From assembly GCF_000420385.1 (NCBI RefSeq), contig NZ_ATUV01000001.1, positions 1,116,001 to 1,180,000 on the forward strand: a stretch of 64,000 nt of DNA, in the 5' to 3' direction. The stretch is from Hippea alviniae EP5-r (GTDB taxonomy: Bacteria; Campylobacterota_A; Desulfurellia; Desulfurellales; Hippeaceae). Both the position numbers and the translations under genes were made by a program. Shown here piece by piece: positions 2,598 through 30,152 of the stretch (within the stretch, counting starts at the first letter, position 1; every line of letters begins with the position of its first letter). Under the pieces are notes generated by a model, which saw nothing but the letters and a program-made list of their open reading frames with translations, ran no database searches and had not been told where the DNA came from.

Positions 2598-3805
2598 AGC
2601 TTTTTCACCTCTTCTCTTATCATGCTATATTTCTTCTCATCACCTATGTTGTTGAGCACTTCCGTTATAAATTCGCCAATCTTTTCCATCTCTTTCTCTT
2701 TCATTCCGCGCGTTGTTATGGCTGGTGTTCCTATTCTTATACCGCTTGCTACAAACGGGCTTCTTGTCTCACCAGGAATCGTGTTCTTATTAACCGTTAT
2801 ACCAACCTTACCCAATGCTTCTTCTGCATCTTTACCTGTTATATTCTTATTTGTCAAATCAACAAGAATTAGATGATTATCAGTGCCGCCAGAGACAAGT
2901 TTAAATCCGTTATCTATTAAAACTTCAGCTAACTTTTTGGCGTTTTTAACAACCTGCTTCTGATACTCTTTAAACTCATCACTCAAAGCTTCTTTGAAGC
3001 AGACAGCCTTTGCAGCAATCACATGCATTAGTGGACCACCCTGCATACCGGGAAATACCATCTTATCAATTGGCTTTGCAAAGAACTCCTTTGTCATTAT
3101 CATGCCGCCTCTTGGGCCGCGCAGGGTTTTGTGTGTTGTTGTTGTAACAAACTCGCAGTATGGAATTGGGCTTGGGTGAAGGCCTGCAGCAACAAGGCCT
3201 GCAATATGAGCAATGTCTGCCATTAAGTAAGCATCAACGCTATCCGCTATCTCTCTGAACTTTTTAAAATCTATAATTCTTGGATATGCACTTGCTCCAC
3301 AGACGATTAATCTCGGCTTAAACTCTTGGGCAATCTCGGCTACTTCATCATAATCTATCATGCCTGTTTCAGGATTAACACCGTATCCGAATGTAAGATA
3401 CAGTTTTCCTGAGAAGTTAACCCTTGAGCCATGTGTTAGATGCCCACCGTTTGTTAAATCCATACCAAGCAGTCTGTCGCCAGGCTGCAGCGTTGCCATA
3501 TAAACAGCCATATTTGCCTGAGAACCTGAGTGTGGCTGCACATTAACATGCTCAGCACCAAAGAGTTTTTTTGCCCTTTCTATAGCAAGATTCTCAACAA
3601 CATCGACATATTCACATCCACCGTAATACCTTTTTGAAGGATAGCCTTCAGCGTATTTATTCGTCATAACAGAACCTTGAGCTTCCATCACAGCTTCGGA
3701 TACAAAGTTTTCGCTGGCTATAAGCTCAAGGCCATACATTTCTCTTCTTTTCTCGTTCTCAATAGCCTGATACACATCTGGGTCAAAATCTTTTAAAACT
3801 CTCAT
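2567..3805 (-). CDS. glyA: serine hydroxymethyltransferase
   Basis: PLP enzyme that converts serine plus tetrahydrofolate to glycine plus methylene-tetrahydrofolate, the main source of one-carbon units. At 412 residues it matches the bacterial family. The PLP lysine is K226 in [14 protein letters not shown]; the N-terminal ELIASENF, the YAEGYP-KRYYGGC segment and the PHSGSQAN motif are all intact. The start is an ATG after a strong GGAGGGAG site that lies inside the end of rpiB (4-base ATGA overlap), so translation is coupled. The tail overlaps the probable start of the TPR gene. Folate use links it to folP elsewhere in the window. Confidence 0.97.
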
Positions 3806-4413: not shown

Positions 4414-5412
4414 TCAATTATTTATCAAAAGCTTCTTTATCTCATCAACACTCTTCGCATCAATAATCGCATCTTTTATGGTTTTGAGTTTATCGATGTC
4501 ATTAATTGTTTTTATTGACTCAAACAGAGCAAGTCCATCACTGCTAAACTTAAGCTGCAAGCCTATTTTTATGGCTTCGAGCAGTCCTTCATAAACACCT
4601 TCCTGCCAACCAGCCTGTTTTCCTTCCTGCCAGCCTATCTGTTTGCCTTCTTCAATTAGTCTATCTGCTAATGTTGGCATTTTGTCTCCTCCTGTTTCTT
4701 TAATTACTCTGCTTAGTTCTTTTTTGTCTATGTCTCTGGCTATAATAATATACTCCAAAAACAGACAATATCCATTCTTATCTGATACCTGTATAAGAGC
4801 TTTAAGGACAGGCTTTAGGCTCTTTATATCATCAAATATATGTTTCATGCTCAAAAGTCCAGCCAAAAGCTCAAGGTTGTTTATTGCTTTTGTTGTTTCT
4901 ATTATCTTGTCATCGTTGAGTCTGTTTGTATCGAAGATAATGCTTTTAAAATTTAAAAGATACTCTTTTATGTTTTTGTCTTCAATATTGAAATAGTTTG
5001 AGAAGTTTTCAGGAATAGAGAGCTTCTTTTTTCCATGATAGAAGATAAAGGGAATTATGGGTATCAACTCTTCTTTGTTCTTTATGTTTGTCTCTCAGAT
5101 GGTTGTCATGTATGAGAGTATCTGAATGAGAGTAAATCTGTCCGCGTATGATTTATGCTCAAAGAGTATGTATATCTGAGCTTTTCTTCCTTTTTCTTTA
5201 CTTGTTTTGCACTCAACGACTAAATCAAGATGATGCCTTTTGTATCTCTTTGAAATCTTCTCTGTGTCTATAACCTTTATTGTGTTTAAGTCTAATGATT
5301 GCTTGAGTTTTTCTGGCAAAAATGAGATTAAGAAATCCTTTATATTTTTCTCATTGCTGAATAGCCTTTTGAAGAATGTGTCGTGTGGTTGGGTGAGTTT
5401 TAAATTTTCCAT
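4414..5412 (-). pseudogene. Rpn-family recombination-promoting nuclease, interrupted by an in-frame TGA
   Basis: Member of the Rpn/transposase_31 PD-(D/E)XK family. The N-terminal part (LTQPHDTFFKRLFS, then HHLDLVVECKT and ILFEHKS, giving the D...ExK nuclease core) and the C-terminal part (ELIPIIPFIFYHG, ending with the family-typical GKQIGWQEGKQAGWQEG repeats) are in the same frame. They are separated by a single TGA at 5097-5095. The family normally has a tryptophan here (TTIWE), so one TGG-to-TGA change explains the break. There is no frameshift or deletion. The C-terminal part could restart at the TTG at 5067. Without the stop the protein would be 332 residues. These genes act as mobile, often decaying DNA endonucleases; there are no functional neighbours. 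Confidence 0.85.
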
Positions 5413-20953: not shown

Positions 20954-23854
20954 TTATTCCAAAGGCAGTCTTATTTCAAACCTTACACCTTCATCAGTGT
21001 TTTCAACAACTATCTCTCCATTCATATGCTCTTCAACCATAATTTTGCTCATATACAAACCAAGCCCTGTTCCCTTTTTGCTATCTTTTGTGGTAAAATA
21101 AGGTTCAAATATCTTTGGCAGTATATCTTCGGGTATGCCACCGGCATTATCTTCAACAGCTATAATAACACCTTTATCATCACACTTTGTCTCTATCTTT
21201 ATCACTGGTTCTTTAATTCTCCTTTCAACAATAGCATCCCTTGAATTATTTATAAAATTAAGTATGACATGCTTAAGCTCATTGGAATGTATAAGCAGTC
21301 TCTTTTTACAGTTAAGATGTAAATCTATCTTGATATTCTTTGCTTCTATGTAATCCCTTGTAATCTTAACGATTTGAACAATAATATCATCAATTACAGC
21401 TTCTTCTTTTGTTATCTCTGGCCTAAAGAAGTTTCTAAAATCATCAATTGTGCTGCTCAAATGCTTAACATACTCCATTATATTTTTAAGCTTATCGTTA
21501 ATTAAATCTTCTGAGCACTCGCCCATCTGAATCTTTAGAAGCAAATTATTAACCGTCGCTGAAATAGCATTCAAAGGCTGTCTCCATTGATGAGCAATCA
21601 TTGCCATCATCTCACCTGTCGCTGCAAACTTGGATTGCTGCATCATCATTCTATCTTTCTTTAAGTTCTTCTCTGTCTCTTCTTGAATTCTTTTTGTCAG
21701 ATATTTATTCAGCTGGCTGAGTTTCTCCTGCAAAACTTTAAGTTCTGTAATATCAACAGCGGTTCCAAGTCTAACCTTCTCACCATTCAATACAATATTA
21801 TCACCCTTTGCAAGCGTATATACAATATCTCCATCTTTTCTTTTAAACTTAAGTTCGTAAGGCTGAGTATGTTCAAGTTTCTGCTTCTTTCTCACTATCT
21901 CTATACAATCATCAGTAATGAAATCATATATGCTTCTTCCTAAAATTTCATCCTTCGAATATCCCAATGTTTTACAAGCAACATCATTTACATCTATACA
22001 CTTTCCATCTTTTGATATTATTGTCATCTGCATAGAATACTTAGTTAATGTTTCAAAATTCTTTAAAGATTCTTCGAGTTGTTGTTTTGTTTTTGCAAGC
22101 TCTCTATTCTTTTTAAGGAAAAATCTAAGAACAAAGAACAGAACCAAAACGATAATGGAAAATATAGTAGTTATTTGCAAAATACTTTTTATTAGAAAAC
22201 TACTGTATTGTTCTTTTATGTGTCTCATTGATTCTCTTGACCAAATCCTGTTCACATCTTCACGAGATATCAAAGCAAGGGACCTATCAAGAAGACCCCT
22301 CAATAAAGGCAAATCCTTTCTTACAGCAATAGATATAGGATAACTTATACCCGTTGAACCAATAATTGTTATGTCATTGTATCCCAATTTTCGCAAATAA
22401 TAAGTTGCAACCGGTAGCGTAGCGATTGTGCAATATGCTCTGTTGTCATGCACATATTTAAACATATCTGCTATTGTGTTAGTTTGTATAATCTCCAAAT
22501 GAGGACATATATTTTTAAGTATTTGAATAAGTGCTGAGCCCTTTTTTCTTGCTATTGTTTTGCCTTTCAACTCATCTAAAGAGACGATAAATGACCTTCC
22601 CTTCTTTGAGAAAACAAACAATTCATAGTTTATGTAAGGCTTGGTAAACAGAGCGTATTTTTCTCTTTGTGGTGTCCTAACAGCGCTTGGCAAAACATCG
22701 CACTTACCCTCTTTTAAAAACTCTTGAGATTCCCTCCAACTTTTTGTTTTTATAAGCCTATAATTCAAAGATAGTTGAGAAAGAACCTTTTTTAATACTT
22801 CTATTGAGATACCTTTGGCTTTTCCATTTTCAAGATATTCAATAGGTTTCCAATCGGGATTTATACATATTTTTACTGTTTTATACCTATTCAAAAATTC
22901 TCTCTCTTTATCAGTCAATGCAATTTCTTTCCTGGCAAAAATGAAATCTGAAACATATACTGTAGGTTTGCCCATTATGCTTGCGAATTGAACAACAATA
23001 TCCTCAACAACATTTTTATCTATAAATCCAATAGGATATACGCTCGGCATAATGATACTTTGAATCTTATTTGCCTCATAATATAAAGCCTTTAAACTTT
23101 TTTTGGTCTTGTATCTCGTATAAATAATTCGAGATATCTCCTTTTTATGTCTTAGGGCATACTCCCATCCTTCTACGGTTGCCTTAACAAACTTACTCAC
23201 TATATCAGGATGCTTTTTCAAAAACTCCTTAGATGTAAATAGATTTCCAGAATAAGCAAATATACCGTAATTAGATGGGTCAATAATATTATATCTAACG
23301 CCAAGTTTATTTAATGTATATGTCTGATTTGTAATATATATCGGTATTGCATCAACTCTTCCTTCAACGAATGGCTTTATCGTATATGGGCCTTTAAACC
23401 TTATAATCTTCTTAAAATGTATGCCAAACTTTTTAAGCAAAAGACCAACACTCGTTAGCCTTATATCCGCCCCGCCGCATAAAAACACCTTGCCTTGTAA
23501 ATCTTCAGGCGTAAAAATTGAAGGTTTAACAGCCAAAACTAAAGGAGAACGCTTAAAGAAGTTTGCAACCATAACAACAGGTTTTTTTAAAATCATAGCC
23601 GCAAAAATCTCAGTCCCAACGACACCAAAATTAGCCTTCCCACTCAAAACATTATTTATAACATCACCACCATTGTACTGTCTTATTTCAACATCAAGCC
23701 CAGCCTTTCTATAAAACCCTTTCTCTTTAGCTGCTATATATCCAGCAAACTCAAATTGATACTTCCAGTTAAGTTGCAAAACAACCTTGTCCAAGGCATG
23801 AGCGTATGAGCTTAGGAAAAATATAGAAAGAAGGATTAAAACAACTCTCTTCAT
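20954..23854 (-). CDS. hybrid-sensing histidine kinase: NMT1 + SBP_bac_3 + PAS + HisKA/HATPase
   Basis: 966 residues. Signal peptide (1-20), then an NMT1/THI5-like solute-binding domain (LQLNWKYQFEFAGYIAAKEK, to about 300), a second, SBP_bac_3-type domain (about 310-545, VKICINPDWKPIEYLENG), one membrane helix (about 555-580), a PAS domain (about 605-710), HisKA with the phospho-His in MIAHQWRQPLNAI, and HATPase (NFINNSRDAI, DNAGGIP, GTGLGL). Two periplasmic ligand domains in series suggest it senses two small molecules. It starts inside the stop of the receiver-EAL gene (ATGA), so that protein is its likely partner. No receiver domain of its own. Confidence 0.92.
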   Translation of the reverse strand: MKRVVLILLSIFFLSSYAHALDKVVLQLNWKYQFEFAGYIAAKEKGFYRKAGLDVEIRQYNGGDVINNVLSGKANFGVVGTEIFAAMILKKPVVMVANFFKRSPLVLAVKPSIFTPEDLQGKVFLCGGADIRLTSVGLLLKKFGIHFKKIIRFKGPYTIKPFVEGRVDAIPIYITNQTYTLNKLGVRYNIIDPSNYGIFAYSGNLFTSKEFLKKHPDIVSKFVKATVEGWEYALRHKKEISRIIYTRYKTKKSLKALYYEANKIQSIIMPSVYPIGFIDKNVVEDIVVQFASIMGKPTVYVSDFIFARKEIALTDKEREFLNRYKTVKICINPDWKPIEYLENGKAKGISIEVLKKVLSQLSLNYRLIKTKSWRESQEFLKEGKCDVLPSAVRTPQREKYALFTKPYINYELFVFSKKGRSFIVSLDELKGKTIARKKGSALIQILKNICPHLEIIQTNTIADMFKYVHDNRAYCTIATLPVATYYLRKLGYNDITIIGSTGISYPISIAVRKDLPLLRGLLDRSLALISREDVNRIWSRESMRHIKEQYSSFLIKSILQITTIFSIIVLVLFFVLRFFLKKNRELAKTKQQLEESLKNFETLTKYSMQMTIISKDGKCIDVNDVACKTLGYSKDEILGRSIYDFITDDCIEIVRKKQKLEHTQPYELKFKRKDGDIVYTLAKGDNIVLNGEKVRLGTAVDITELKVLQEKLSQLNKYLTKRIQEETEKNLKKDRMMMQQSKFAATGEMMAMIAHQWRQPLNAISATVNNLLLKIQMGECSEDLINDKLKNIMEYVKHLSSTIDDFRNFFRPEITKEEAVIDDIIVQIVKITRDYIEAKNIKIDLHLNCKKRLLIHSNELKHVILNFINNSRDAIVERRIKEPVIKIETKCDDKGVIIAVEDNAGGIPEDILPKIFEPYFTTKDSKKGTGLGLYMSKIMVEEHMNGEIVVENTDEGVRFEIRLPLE

Positions 23855-25839
23855 TTAACTAAATCTTCTAAGGGCTTGCCTATAAAATAACCCTGAGAGT
23901 AGTCTATACCCATATCTTTAACGATATTAAAAATCCTTTCATCAGAGACAAACTCAGCAACAGTCTTGTATCCCTGCTTGTTGGCAAACGAAACAATAGC
24001 TTCAACAATGTTTCTTGAGCTCACACTCTCAACAATCGTTTTTATAAGACTTGAATCTATCTTAATGTAATCTGGCTCATACTCAAGCAGACGGGAAAAA
24101 TTGGAATATCCACTTCCAAAATCATCAATGGCAATCTTAACGCCAAACTCTTTTAGGTTCTTTATAAAACCTTTAACAATATGGAGTTGATTTATGCCTT
24201 CATCTTCCAAAAGCTCAACCACAAGCCTTCTCGATAAGGTGGGATTCTCCTTCAATTTATCTAAAATCAAGTCTCTTGTATTGGCATCTTCTATGTCAAT
24301 TGCAGATAGATTTATGGATATTTCAGTTTTTGTCTCTGAAAGCCTTTTAAGTGCATTTTCGACAACAATCCTTGTTATCTGCTTGTAGTACTTGCCAATC
24401 TTTGCAACATCCAAGAACTCAAAAGGAGTATGAACTCTACCTTCCTTATCTATAAGCCTGACTAAAGATTCATACTTCTCTATCCTGCCAATTTTGTTGT
24501 TGTAAATTGGCTGATAATAGGAGACTATCCTTTTGTTTTTGATCGCATCCCTTATCATACTCAATGTCTCTATATTCTTTTTTGCTATCTCTTGAACCTG
24601 CTGATACAATCCATCTGCAGCAATTATGTCAATCTTCTCTTTTAGTGCCTTTTTTATGCCAAGATAAGCGTTTTTAAGCATATGTTTCTTCTCTGTGGCA
24701 AAACTCAAGAGCAAATCTATCTCATACTCATAATCACCAACCTTAATCGGTGTATTTCTTACATTCTCCTGAAACTGTTTAATATCTCTTAAAAACTCGT
24801 TTATATGTTTGTTGTTATTATACTCCTTTAAGAAGGCAAACTCACCATTACCCAAATTGTATTTAAAATCAAAACGACAACCATCAGGAAACAGGCTCTC
24901 GGACATCTTAACAAACTCTTCTTCCATCTTCTCTATCATCTCTTCGTCGTATAGATTCTGCAAATCGTCGTAATCTTCAATCTTCGCAAAAAGTAAAATG
25001 GGCTTCTTAAGTTCGTTAATCTTATCCTGTAAAACCTTCTTGGGATTGATAATATCGGTTATATCGTCTCTTACGGCTATATATTCAATAATATTTCCAT
25101 CTTCGTCAAAGATTGGAGCAACATTGGCTTTTAAATAGACAGCCTTGCCATCCTTGGTTTTATTTTTTATTACACCCTTAAAAATCTTTCCGCTCTGTAT
25201 CGTATCCCAAAGCTGCTTAAAAACTTCTTTGGGCATGTCGGGATGTCTAACGATATTGTGAGACTTACCTATAAGTTCTTCTCTTTTGTATCCTGTTGCC
25301 TTACAAAACAGCTCGTTTGCGTATGTTATAACTCCATCTAAATCAGTTTTTGTTACACTAAAACTTTCGTCGATTATCTTTTTATACTGTTTAAGCAGAG
25401 CTAAAGCCCTATCTCTCTCTTTTCTTAAAATCGTCTTTTCAACAGATCTATATATAGATTCCATTAGCTGGTTGATATCGATAGGCTTTAAAATATAACC
25501 ATAGACACCTATTTTTATACTCTCAAGCAGATACTCAAAATTATTAAAAGCCGTGATCACCAAAACGGGCACTTTCTTGTCTATCTTTTTAATCCTTTTT
25601 ATCATCTCAAGCCCGTCCATTTTTGGCATATTTATATCTGTGATTATTATATCGTGTCTTTTTGATTCGAATTTTTCGAGCCCTTCAACGCCGTCTTTAG
25701 CCGTATCTATAAAATTAAAGAAGTTAAGCAAAAGCTCTTCAGTCTCTTTTCTTGCAAACTCGTCATCTTCAACATACAAAACTTTTATCGTCTCTTTGCT
25801 ATTTAGCTCTTTAATCTTTTCGAATAATTCCCTATCCAT
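23851..25839 (-). CDS. response regulator with PAS and EAL (c-di-GMP phosphodiesterase) domains
   Basis: 662 residues. The receiver domain (1-125) has phospho-acceptor D68 in IIITDINMPKMDG and acidic pair EDD near 24. A PAS domain (about 160-275) contains KREELIGKSHNIVRHPDMP, as in Aer-type PAS. A degenerate middle domain (about 285-400) follows, then EAL (about 415-660). EAL residues are mostly kept: YESLVRL in place of EALxR, INLSAIDIED, VELLED, IDDFGSGYSN, YIKIDSSL, VAEFV. So hydrolysis of c-di-GMP is plausible. It precedes and overlaps the histidine kinase gene, forming a two-component pair that turns an external ligand into a c-di-GMP signal. Confidence 0.92.
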   Translation of the reverse strand: MDRELFEKIKELNSKETIKVLYVEDDEFARKETEELLLNFFNFIDTAKDGVEGLEKFESKRHDIIITDINMPKMDGLEMIKRIKKIDKKVPVLVITAFNNFEYLLESIKIGVYGYILKPIDINQLMESIYRSVEKTILRKERDRALALLKQYKKIIDESFSVTKTDLDGVITYANELFCKATGYKREELIGKSHNIVRHPDMPKEVFKQLWDTIQSGKIFKGVIKNKTKDGKAVYLKANVAPIFDEDGNIIEYIAVRDDITDIINPKKVLQDKINELKKPILLFAKIEDYDDLQNLYDEEMIEKMEEEFVKMSESLFPDGCRFDFKYNLGNGEFAFLKEYNNNKHINEFLRDIKQFQENVRNTPIKVGDYEYEIDLLLSFATEKKHMLKNAYLGIKKALKEKIDIIAADGLYQQVQEIAKKNIETLSMIRDAIKNKRIVSYYQPIYNNKIGRIEKYESLVRLIDKEGRVHTPFEFLDVAKIGKYYKQITRIVVENALKRLSETKTEISINLSAIDIEDANTRDLILDKLKENPTLSRRLVVELLEDEGINQLHIVKGFIKNLKEFGVKIAIDDFGSGYSNFSRLLEYEPDYIKIDSSLIKTIVESVSSRNIVEAIVSFANKQGYKTVAEFVSDERIFNIVKDMGIDYSQGYFIGKPLEDLVK

Positions 25840-25847
25840 TTAAGGAA

Positions 25848-25876
25848 AAAATATACTACTTAAATCTATTTGTCAA
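25848..25876 (-). promoter_or_regulatory. promoter of the receiver-EAL/histidine kinase operon
   Basis: Minus-strand TTGACA (25876-25871), a 17-base spacer and TATTTT (25853-25848). A mirror-image TTGACA on the plus strand (25890-25895) points toward the chemoreceptor gene, with a weak TAAGAT 16 bases on. Confidence 0.5.
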
Positions 25877-25997
25877 ATCTAACAAAGACTTGACAGAAAT
25901 CAAAAATAAATTAAGATTGGATATACCTATGTTAAACAGAACACTTATTGAACTGATTAAGTGTATAAGTTCTCAAAAGAAAAAGTTTCTCATCCTG

Positions 25998-26008
25998 CCC
26001 CCCCCCCC
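25998..26008. repeat. poly-C tract (11 C)
   Basis: Eleven consecutive Cs in very AT-rich DNA, ending 44 bases before the chemoreceptor start. Runs of this length slip during replication in Campylobacterota and Neisseria and cause phase variation; the tract lies in the promoter or leader of the next gene. The gap 25840-26052 holds no gene. Confidence 0.85.
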
Positions 26009-26052
26009 GAGTGCATTACGCAAATAAACAAAAAATACTGTAGGAGGTCGCT

Positions 26053-27663
26053 ATGTTAAAGAATGTATCAGTTAAAACCATCATTATCTCGGGGCTATTG
26101 TTAATGTTTATAGGTCTCGTTGTATCTGTCATATTTACATCATCGACCATAAATTCAAGCAAACGAATGATTAAACATCTGAAACAACATGACTTTGGAC
26201 AAATTATGTACTACCATGAACTCGAAAAAAGCTTCGCTAAATTAAAAGAAGCCTTACTTAAAGCTTATGCATTAAACGATGACTACTCGCTAAATAAAGC
26301 AAAACAACAGATAAACCAAATAAACAGCATAATTGAAGAATACATATCAAAATATTCAGATTCTTTAACAACTATAGAAAAGGAGAAACTAAGAAATATT
26401 GAGAATGATATAGATGCAGAATTTAACCTAACAAAAGAAGAAATCGAAAAAGAGAGAAAAAATCCAGAAACTAAGCTCTCTCACATCGATTTTCTTGATA
26501 AAAACAACAGCCTTATAGAGAAACAGATAACAGAACTTGTAAACATAAAACTAAACTCTATGAGCAATTTTATGGATTCGATAAACAGCTCCCTAAACAA
26601 ATCCCAAACCATAGGAATAATAATTTATGCAATCTTAGGCATTATGATGATTGCAATGTTTATTATTCTTAAAATGTATCTCATAGACCCATTGAATGGA
26701 GTCCAAGATGTAATGAGAGAAATAGGGTCAGGTAACCTAAATGTAAGGTTTAAAGTTTGGACAAACAACGAAATAGGCAATCTAAAAAGAGAAATGAATA
26801 AAATGATAGAAAACTTGCAAATAATGGTTAAAAATATCAAAGAAGCCACAGAAATAATGGTAAAAGATTCTCAAACCCTCTCAACTGCTGCTTTCGAAGC
26901 ATCTTCGGCAACCGAAGAAACCACAAGAGGTATGGAAGAGATAAGAACTGCCCTGAACGACACCTCAAAAGCTATAGACGACATAGCAAAAGCTGCAGAA
27001 AATGTTACTCATCTCGCAAACAGAATAGCAGAAGTAAACCAAAAGATAATTGAAGACATCGAACACAGAGTCAAAAACATGGAAATCAACGCTAAATTAG
27101 CAGAAGAGACAATGAATCAGATAAACATAGTTGGAGAGTCTTCCAAAAACATAGGCAAGATAGTTGATGTTATTAGTGATATTGCAGACCAAACAAATCT
27201 TTTAGCTTTGAATGCTGCAATCGAAGCTGCACGAGCAGGAGAAGCTGGTCGTGGTTTTGCCGTTGTTGCAGATGAAGTAAGAAAACTCGCAGAGAAGACT
27301 CAAAGCTCAACAGAAGAGATAAGAAGCATGATAGTTAAGATGCAAACAGATGTTGAGAAGTCTATACAAAAGACAAAAGAGACACAAGATAGCATCCTCT
27401 CTGAAGCAAAAGCAATACAAGAGAACAAAGAACACATTAACGAAGTTGTAGAGAGAACAAACCAGACAATAGAAGAAATCTCTTCAACTTCTGCAGCTAT
27501 TGAAGAGATATCTGCAACAGTTGCAGAGATAGATTCGCAGGTTAGAGAAGTTACAGAAGCAGCAAAAGAGAATGCAAAAGCGGCAGAAGATGTAGCAAAG
27601 GCAAGCGAAAATCTTAAAGATATTGCGGAAAAAGTGCAAAGTCTGATAAATAAATTTAAGTGA
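26053..27663 (+). CDS. methyl-accepting chemotaxis protein
   Basis: 536 residues. Membrane helix 1 (about 8-30), a periplasmic helical sensing domain (about 31-188, four-helix-bundle type), membrane helix 2 (about 188-210), HAMP (about 210-265) and a signalling domain. The tip carries [28 protein letters not shown]-type sequence, seen as [18 protein letters not shown] and [19 protein letters not shown]. It senses an unknown ligand and signals to CheA/CheW. Strong AGGAGGT ribosome site. Preceded by the poly-C tract and followed at once by a c-di-GMP phosphodiesterase gene, so its expression may be switchable. Confidence 0.95.
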
Positions 27664-30152
27664 TGGAGAAGTTAGGTAAAACATTTATAGACATTATAAA
27701 TTCCATCTCCATCATAGGTGTATATATCTATCAAGAAGAAGGAAAAATAGTGTTTTCAAATGAAGCATTCGCAAATCTGCTGGGATATGACAAAGATGAA
27801 ATTTTAAAACTAACAGTATTTGACATACTTTATAAAGACAAGGACTACATAAAAAGCATCATAGAAAAAAGAACAAGGGGTGAAACTTTCACAAAAGAGT
27901 ACAATGAGTTATTTTACAAAACAAAAAGTGGATTTATAAAACCAACTATAAACTTCGGTTATACCATAACATTTAATGGTAAACCGGCAGGGCTTGTAAT
28001 AGTTATAGATTCAACGCAACAAAAACTTTTCTCAATCCTTTACGAGAGTCTCGCAAAAATAATGTTCATAGCAACCTCATCGAAGAATGAGAAAGAGTTG
28101 ATAAAAAAGACAGTTAATACGCTCGTTGAAACCGTAGGGTTTGATCTTGTTGTTGTAGGCAAAATAGACGAAAAGACAAAATTATTCGAACTACATCACA
28201 TAAAAGCAAAATTAAAAGAGTACGAAGAAATATTTAAACAAATGAAGGTTTCAGCGGACGAAAACATACCCGAAGGTAAAGGTAGTATAGGCGAAGCATA
28301 CAGAACGAAATCGATTGTCGTAATAAACAACATTTATAAAGACGATAGAATGAAAGCATGGAGAGAACAACAAAAGAAAACAGGCGTTTACGCTGTCTGC
28401 TCACTTCCTGTTGGCGATTATATAATGGCTTTATATTCAAGAATCCCAGAAATATTTGACGAACAGCACATAAAACTTATAAAAAACATTCAAACTGCTA
28501 TCTCCGCAGCTATAAAAAGAATAAATCTTGAAAGATGGAAAAATCTCTTAAATAGCACCATTGAACAGGGGTTTGACCTCGTAATAATCACCGATAAAGA
28601 ATTAAATATCCTATATCTAAACAGCAACACAGAAAGAATTACAGGGTTTTCAAAAGAAGAGCTCGAAGGCAAAAAGCTTGACTTTCTCCTAACAGAGAAG
28701 GTTAAACAAAAACCTATAAACACAATCAATGGTGGTTTCTACAGAGTTGTATTATGCAAAAGAAAAGACGGCACCCAAATTGATATTCTTCTTAACATAT
28801 CAAAAACCATAGAGGAAGACCAAATATTTTACATAGCCACAGGGAAAGACATAACGGGAAATATAGAGTTGCAAAAAGCTATAGACGAAACACTAAATAA
28901 AGACCAAATAATAGGGCTTTTAAATAGAAACGCATTTGTAAAAGCTATAGAAAAATTCATACATAGAGCAAAACACAAAAATTTAATCGGTGCTGTTGTT
29001 GTTATAAATCCAATAGAGTTCTCAACAATAAACAAAGCATTGGGATTTAAAAAAGCAAACAGCATACTCAAACAGATAGCTGAAAGACTCATAAATTTCT
29101 TGCGTGAATACGACACTGTAGCAAAACTCGAATCAGACAGATTCGGTGTTCTAATAAAAGACATTCAAAGAGAAGAGGACGTGTTTGTTATTGTAAAAAG
29201 ACTTCTCGATGTGCTTTTTAAACCATATTCAACAGGTTCAAGTAGCATAATTATGGGATTTAACGCAGGAATATCAATGTTTCCATCAGATTCAAAAGAT
29301 GCGGAAGAGTTGATTGAAAAAGCAGAGATAGCTATTCCTGAAAGCAAAGAAAAATCCGTAAATCTCGGGTTTTACAGAGACTCTCTCAAAGAGAAATTTA
29401 CAAAAAGGGTTCAGATAGAATCATCATTCCTAAAAGCTTTAGAAAACGACGAGTTCGTGTTCTTCTTACAACCCTATGTAAATGCAAACGATTTAAGCAT
29501 AGGTGGAGCAGAAGCCTTAATAAGATGGAAGAAAAACGGCAAGATAATATCTCCTATGGAGTTTGTGCCAATACTCGAAGAGATGAAACTAATAAAGGAT
29601 TTGGAAATTTGGACTGTAAACAAAAAGCTGCCATGTCTTAAAAATATTATAGAAAAAGGAATACCAATAGCTTTAAACATATCTCCTGTAAGTCTAAATG
29701 ACGACCTGTTTGTAGAAAAGCTGATAAATAGTGTCAAAGAAAACGGCATCAACCCTAAAATGTTGAGAATAGAGATAACCGAAAGGTTGTTTATAGAAAA
29801 TCTGCAGAAAGCCGCAAAAACATTAAATAAACTTAGAAACAAAGGATTTAAAATAATGGTTGACGACTTCGGAACAGGTTACTCTTCTTTATCATATATT
29901 TCAAAATTGCCACTTGATTTCATAAAAATCGATATCTCGTTCACGAGAATTATCTTAAACGATGCAAAAACTCTATCAATAGTAAAAACAATACTATTTA
30001 TGGCAAAAGAGCTGGGCATAAAAACCGTCGCAGAAGGTGTCGAAACAAAAGAACAGGCAAACTTACTAAAACAGATAGGCTGCGATTATCTGCAAGGTTT
30101 CCTATTCTACAAACCCATGCCAGCTGAAGAGTTAGTCAAACTAATACGATAA
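27663..30152 (+). CDS. PAS-GAF-PAS-GGDEF(degenerate)-EAL protein
   Basis: About 829 residues, no membrane helix. PAS (1-115, FSNEAFANLLGYDKDEILKL), GAF (about 125-290), second PAS (about 300-410), a GGDEF-like domain whose signature reads ESDRF, so diguanylate cyclase activity is unlikely, and a full EAL domain (580-829). The EAL residues are present: GAEALIRWKK, ALNISPVSL, IEITERL, VDDFGTGYSSL, DFIKID, AEGVETKEQA. Most likely a cytoplasmic c-di-GMP phosphodiesterase regulated by small ligands. The ATG overlaps the chemoreceptor stop (TGATG); a GTG one codon earlier is also possible. Confidence 0.92.
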   Translation: MEKLGKTFIDIINSISIIGVYIYQEEGKIVFSNEAFANLLGYDKDEILKLTVFDILYKDKDYIKSIIEKRTRGETFTKEYNELFYKTKSGFIKPTINFGYTITFNGKPAGLVIVIDSTQQKLFSILYESLAKIMFIATSSKNEKELIKKTVNTLVETVGFDLVVVGKIDEKTKLFELHHIKAKLKEYEEIFKQMKVSADENIPEGKGSIGEAYRTKSIVVINNIYKDDRMKAWREQQKKTGVYAVCSLPVGDYIMALYSRIPEIFDEQHIKLIKNIQTAISAAIKRINLERWKNLLNSTIEQGFDLVIITDKELNILYLNSNTERITGFSKEELEGKKLDFLLTEKVKQKPINTINGGFYRVVLCKRKDGTQIDILLNISKTIEEDQIFYIATGKDITGNIELQKAIDETLNKDQIIGLLNRNAFVKAIEKFIHRAKHKNLIGAVVVINPIEFSTINKALGFKKANSILKQIAERLINFLREYDTVAKLESDRFGVLIKDIQREEDVFVIVKRLLDVLFKPYSTGSSSIIMGFNAGISMFPSDSKDAEELIEKAEIAIPESKEKSVNLGFYRDSLKEKFTKRVQIESSFLKALENDEFVFFLQPYVNANDLSIGGAEALIRWKKNGKIISPMEFVPILEEMKLIKDLEIWTVNKKLPCLKNIIEKGIPIALNISPVSLNDDLFVEKLINSVKENGINPKMLRIEITERLFIENLQKAAKTLNKLRNKGFKIMVDDFGTGYSSLSYISKLPLDFIKIDISFTRIILNDAKTLSIVKTILFMAKELGIKTVAEGVETKEQANLLKQIGCDYLQGFLFYKPMPAEELVKLIR

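Follow-up and report, generated by a model that had tools for sequence, protein, structure and literature searches.

A poly-C tract before a chemoreceptor and c-di-GMP operon of Hippea alviniae as a candidate phase-variable element

A run of 11 cytosines in Hippea alviniae EP5-r, in the predicted transcribed leader of an operon that pairs a chemoreceptor gene with a c-di-GMP gene, is rather likely to be a contingency (phase-variable) element, and phase variation of this operon in general is fairly likely. From sequence comparison we infer, with good support, that the locus is phase-variable; bacteria of the Hippea group probably vary their motility signalling randomly from cell to cell. The preliminary description of this DNA had proposed that a slippage-prone tract switches the operon in the manner of Neisseria. 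Its core idea is strengthened by a genus-wide association of long tracts with such operons, by tract retention in orthologues, by the absence of mismatch-repair domains and by a tract of two lengths in a relative; what finds no support here is the Neisseria promoter form.

The tract consists, as first described, of exactly 11 Cs (C11, 25998-26008), and the next longest C or G run in the window, the whole 64-kb stretch analysed, is 6. Markov models of order 1-2 expect 0.0003-0.0008 C/G runs of at least 11 per window and 0.01-0.02 per genome, in agreement with the original judgement that such a run is unlikely by chance. A search of the genome for other long C/G runs, as had been proposed, found those of at least 9 to be rare in the 1.75-Mb assembly: the window C11, a C9 on contig 2 with plasmid-like surroundings and both ends of contig C3 (each C11), with no others. 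Three other chromosomal runs reach 7: two belong to terminator-like stems, the third to a coding region. The length of the window tract is beyond chance, as that of a slip-prone homopolymer at a contingency locus would be.

The chemoreceptor (MCP) gene begins after the 44 nt (26009-26052) originally counted, and shares a 4-nt overlap with the gene that follows (Table 1). The latter had been called a c-di-GMP phosphodiesterase gene; it does encode an EAL domain, with phosphodiesterase activity a prediction and a GGDEF domain also present.

Table 1. Features of the tract, its leader and the flanking genes in window coordinates
Feature	Position	Strand	Basis
C11 homopolymer, proposed slippage site	25998..26008	+	read from sequence; run count
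Methyl-accepting chemotaxis protein (MCP), 536 aa	26053..27663	+	HAMP, MCPsignal domains
PAS-GAF-PAS-GGDEF-EAL protein, 830 aa, presumed c-di-GMP phosphodiesterase/cyclase	27660..30152	+	domains
Response regulator-PAS-EAL gene, divergent, bounds the intergenic region	23851..25839	-	domains
Sigma-70-like promoter TTGACA-16-TAAGAT, predicted to drive the leader	25890..25917	+	consensus match only, 10/12 positions
MCP Shine-Dalgarno AGGAGG	26042..26047	+	by inspection
Candidate upstream ORF, 32 codons, MLNRTLIELIKCISSQKKKFLILPPPPSALRK, reading through the tract	25929..26027	+	inferred; no strong Shine-Dalgarno of its own

Because our scan predicted a single sigma-70-like promoter on the + strand, 80 nt ahead of the tract, we place the tract in the leader, about 75 nt into it and outside the promoter. 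With the UTR taken from the predicted promoter, the chemoreceptor operon has a homopolymer in its 5' UTR, at a distance from the MCP start where tract length could alter expression.

Promoter-tract switches control opc and porA in Neisseria. In Helicobacter pylori, a promoter tract acts as a rheostat of sabA (PMC4081817). Those systems share with the window a homopolymer upstream of the start codon, and there slippage changes output; unlike theirs, the window tract lies in a predicted leader, neither in nor next to the promoter, nor between its -35 and -10 elements. A transcriptional explanation, in which slippage shifts promoter geometry as at opc/porA or sabA, can draw on relatives that do have the promoter-spacer form: by inspection, G001 carries TTGACA-aattcGGGGGGGG-ata-TATATA before an MCP gene, and G010 carries TTGACA-N10-G9 or G11-TATAAG before a lipoprotein gene. 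At the window locus itself, however, the scan found no promoter that spans or abuts the tract, the only one on the + strand being that at 25890-25917, so a Neisseria-type promoter switch is not supported here and we consider this explanation unlikely.

The association of long tracts with one kind of gene extends across the genus. We listed all C/G runs of at least 8 in nine genomes of the genus and read their surroundings. Eight of the 15 distinct runs of at least 9, the window tract among them, are followed within 200 nt by an MCP or GGDEF-EAL gene or operon, against one of the 18 runs of exactly 8 (a G8 before an MCP gene in G001; Fisher p = 0.004). With about 40 MCP/GGDEF-EAL genes per genome, these upstream zones make up roughly 0.5% of the genome, and the binomial p is 1.5e-15 with orthologues uncollapsed and about 1.6e-7 with orthologues collapsed (4/11 runs of at least 9 in the zone); the 200-nt zone was chosen after the data were seen, and with a fourfold zone the collapsed p is still 5e-5. 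Two genomes, G008 and G007, have no C/G run of at least 9.

The tracts stand at several distances from their genes. In G004 and G006 a C10 lies 46-47 nt before orthologous MCP genes, which are followed by PAS-GGDEF-EAL genes; a G11 in G003, a G10 or G11 in G005 and a G9 in G006 each stand 10 nt from the ATG of the PAS-GGDEF-EAL gene that follows, the G006 copy of which is frame-shifted, and in G003 and G005 an MCP gene comes next. A G12 in G003 and a G13 in G002 lie 167-168 nt before another PAS-EAL gene, with an MCP gene next in G003. In paired operons with a readable second gene the tract always precedes the first gene, whichever type leads. Tract-linked EAL proteins occupy at least five places in the family tree, and in the sister family G018 has a G13 in frame within the first PAS domain of a PAS-GAF-PAS-GGDEF-EAL protein. 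Tract position thus varies, from leader and promoter spacer to just ahead of the start codon or within the gene, and the kind of gene is constant, as selection for variable output would give. Elsewhere in the order, outside the genus, the remaining runs of exactly 9 showed no association with MCP/GGDEF-EAL genes.

Several of these loci have features of their own. The G13 of G018 is on the sense strand (L127, G018:C20, 4728-4740), and other lengths would truncate the protein. The G13 and G12 of G002 and G003 (L113, G002:C87, 3047-3059; L124, G003:C171, 1045-1056) sit in the leader beside C4-C5 runs; alternative strong hairpins are possible there, one followed by a T-rich stretch, making a possible attenuator whose balance would depend on tract length. 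A ninth tract, C11, lies at the 3' end of a Cache-GGDEF gene (L122, G003:C139, 3039-3049), reminiscent of the C-terminal switching reportedly described in Helicobacter canadensis. In G006 a G10 lies about 240 nt upstream of an apparent dnaE, for the DNA polymerase III alpha subunit (L116, G006:C49, 3060-3069). Several MCP or EAL genes of paired operons in G006, G002 and G008 are frame-shifted or contain stops (L115, L140, L144/L154).

Retention in orthologues points the same way as the genus-wide association. MCP identity between G004 and G006 is 80%; at four-fold sites the agreement is 51%, and over the stretch of upstream leader that can be aligned it is about 63%. The C10 is kept at the same distance in both despite this silent-site divergence, over which interruption of a run of ten would be expected under neutrality. 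Related loci that keep a tract thus comprise the C10 loci of G004 and G006 and at least five EAL lineages. Counting against this, no long tract accompanies the closest homologues of the window MCP, one in the same genome at 63% identity and one in G004 at 60%. A database search for close MCP relatives returned one MAG contig (L011), without a tract. These data also bear on the notion of a neutral by-product, in which homopolymers expand anywhere for want of mismatch repair and the window tract has no effect on expression. The absence of mismatch-repair domains and the presence of some long tracts near unrelated genes (the dnaE leader, plasmid regions, a SHOCT gene) are what it would predict, but the strong association with one functional class, the several independent positions and the retention of the tract past substantial silent-site divergence make it improbable.

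A domain search found neither MutS_I nor MutL_C in the nine genomes of the genus; among controls, MutS_I was found in 11/14 genomes and MutL_C in 11/14. Without MutS and MutL, replication slippage would often add or remove Cs. Tracts of more than one length do occur: in G010, of the same family, two contigs with 117 identical flanking nt carry one tract as G9 and as G11, and G005 has two alleles, C10 (at a contig end) and C11. Contig C3, which starts and ends with exactly C11, would be consistent with length variation. All three are loci other than the window tract, and PCR slippage could contribute to them. The G010 run forms the spacer between TTGACA and TATAAG (L164, G010:C31, 118-126; L126, G010:C88, 7-17), 44 nt before a small lipoprotein-like gene, and is a candidate promoter-spacer switch.

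We take the C3 ends to reflect the k-mer assembly pattern of a circular molecule whose tract is C11 and longer. The contig (G000:C3, L012, 1-10935) is plasmid-like, encoding a Rep_3 initiator, a tyrosine recombinase and an AAA/DUF4143 protein, with a group II intron match at 4818-4912 and a 75-aa ORF starting 1 nt past the tract read as G11. Insertion of C3 at the chromosomal C11, which its recombinase and C11 ends could suggest, is an unneeded assumption, since a circular plasmid with one tract of variable length accounts for the ends of the contig. C9 runs also lie near plasmid replication genes, as on C3, at L013 7615-7623 and L123 (G003:C168) 3036-3044, and plasmid-type regions of the genus seem prone to long C/G runs. 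The break of contig C3 at C11, and the error-prone nature of homopolymers, by which the exact length may be off, would fit an assembly or sequencing artefact. For the window tract such an artefact is highly improbable, as the tract is internal to a 1.28-Mb contig and set in a coherent leader, and independent assemblies of relatives show a tract at the same distance.

How might tract length reach expression? In the mechanism that we propose, transcription would start near 25924, and ribosomes would translate a short upstream ORF across the tract, whose length would set the reading frame and with it the position of the stop. At C11 the upstream ORF closes with a TAA ahead of the MCP Shine-Dalgarno, leaving 25 nt to the MCP ATG; at C10 it would stop at a TAG inside the Shine-Dalgarno, 9 nt before the ATG, and at C12 at a TAA that overlaps the MCP start and ends 7 nt after its first base. 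The stop position would alter re-initiation on, or access to, the MCP start and so change translation of the operon; output would then be unequal among sibling cells, and the population would be spread over swimming or tracking and attached states.

Such a frame-shifting upstream ORF is the most likely link of tract length to expression, and we put it forward tentatively. We prefer it because two competing routes through the leader fail and the ORF itself reads through the tract: predicted pairing of the MCP Shine-Dalgarno is unchanged from C8 to C14, which speaks against RNA folding that would hide this site at some tract lengths, and an MCP-frame TAG at 26041-26043 excludes an in-frame N-terminal MCP extension across the tract. 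It is also preferred because the leaders of both G004 and G006 have an upstream start with a strong Shine-Dalgarno, 25-30 nt before the tract and open into it (null probability about 0.04 each). Against it count the weak Shine-Dalgarno of the upstream start in the window and the fact that AT-rich DNA often has a stop close to a start codon by chance alone. Across the genus the sense strand carries C in some tracts and G in others, and therefore an effect on frame or spacing is favoured over base pairing.

Judged by analogy, the nearest known case is the tlpB-hp0102 leader of H. pylori, where a length-variable G-repeat is read by the sRNA RepG (PMC8295292). Both loci have a homopolymer in the leader of a two-gene mRNA with the chemoreceptor first; the window mRNA, however, bears C where that of tlpB bears G, its second gene encodes a GGDEF-EAL protein where that of H. 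pylori encodes a glycosyltransferase, and no RepG-like RNA was found for the window. The equal setting (PMC8295292) would allow that an sRNA pairs with the leader homopolymer, as RepG does with the tlpB G-repeat, and that tract length grades the response. We regard this as very unlikely: a C-bearing mRNA requires a G-rich sRNA, across the plus strand of the assembly, G runs of at least 7 amount to a single G7, located in a terminator-like stem, relatives have sense-strand G for the same operon type, and an Rfam scan of the window gave no matches, so that neither search offered a candidate.

Two further systems resemble the window locus in part. In Clostridioides difficile the c-di-GMP phosphodiesterase gene pdcB is phase-variable by DNA inversion (PMC9286219). 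A c-di-GMP phosphodiesterase is likewise a candidate target here, but the window locus has no inverted repeats of at least 12 nt in 25700-26200 and inversion was rejected. The majority of the 43 contingency genes in Helicobacter bizzozeronii modify surface structures, and one of the 43 is an MCP gene with a C9 at its 5' end (PMC3234257). Poly-C is tied to a chemoreceptor in both cases; the long tracts of the genus, unlike those of H. bizzozeronii, concentrate on chemotaxis and c-di-GMP operons. For Hippea and Desulfurella our literature search gave no account of phase variation, and it gave no precedent for a frame-shifting upstream ORF gating operon translation as a type of switch.

It is conceivable, if on balance doubtful, that a free-living thermophile lineage has repeatedly and independently put slipping C/G tracts on paired chemoreceptor/GGDEF-EAL operons, that random swim-or-settle switching is a selected trait of the genus, and that its leader form is gated by a frame-shifting upstream ORF. 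Homopolymer phase variation is known mainly in host-associated bacteria, where it alters surface antigens. The organism here, for which no host is known, is a vent-type thermophile that reduces sulfur, and the targets are regulators of movement and attachment. If this is true, fluctuating physical environments alone can select for stochastic bet-hedging of c-di-GMP and chemotaxis; it would also suggest that slippage-prone regulation without MutS and MutL reaches past Helicobacter and Campylobacter to the Desulfurellales.
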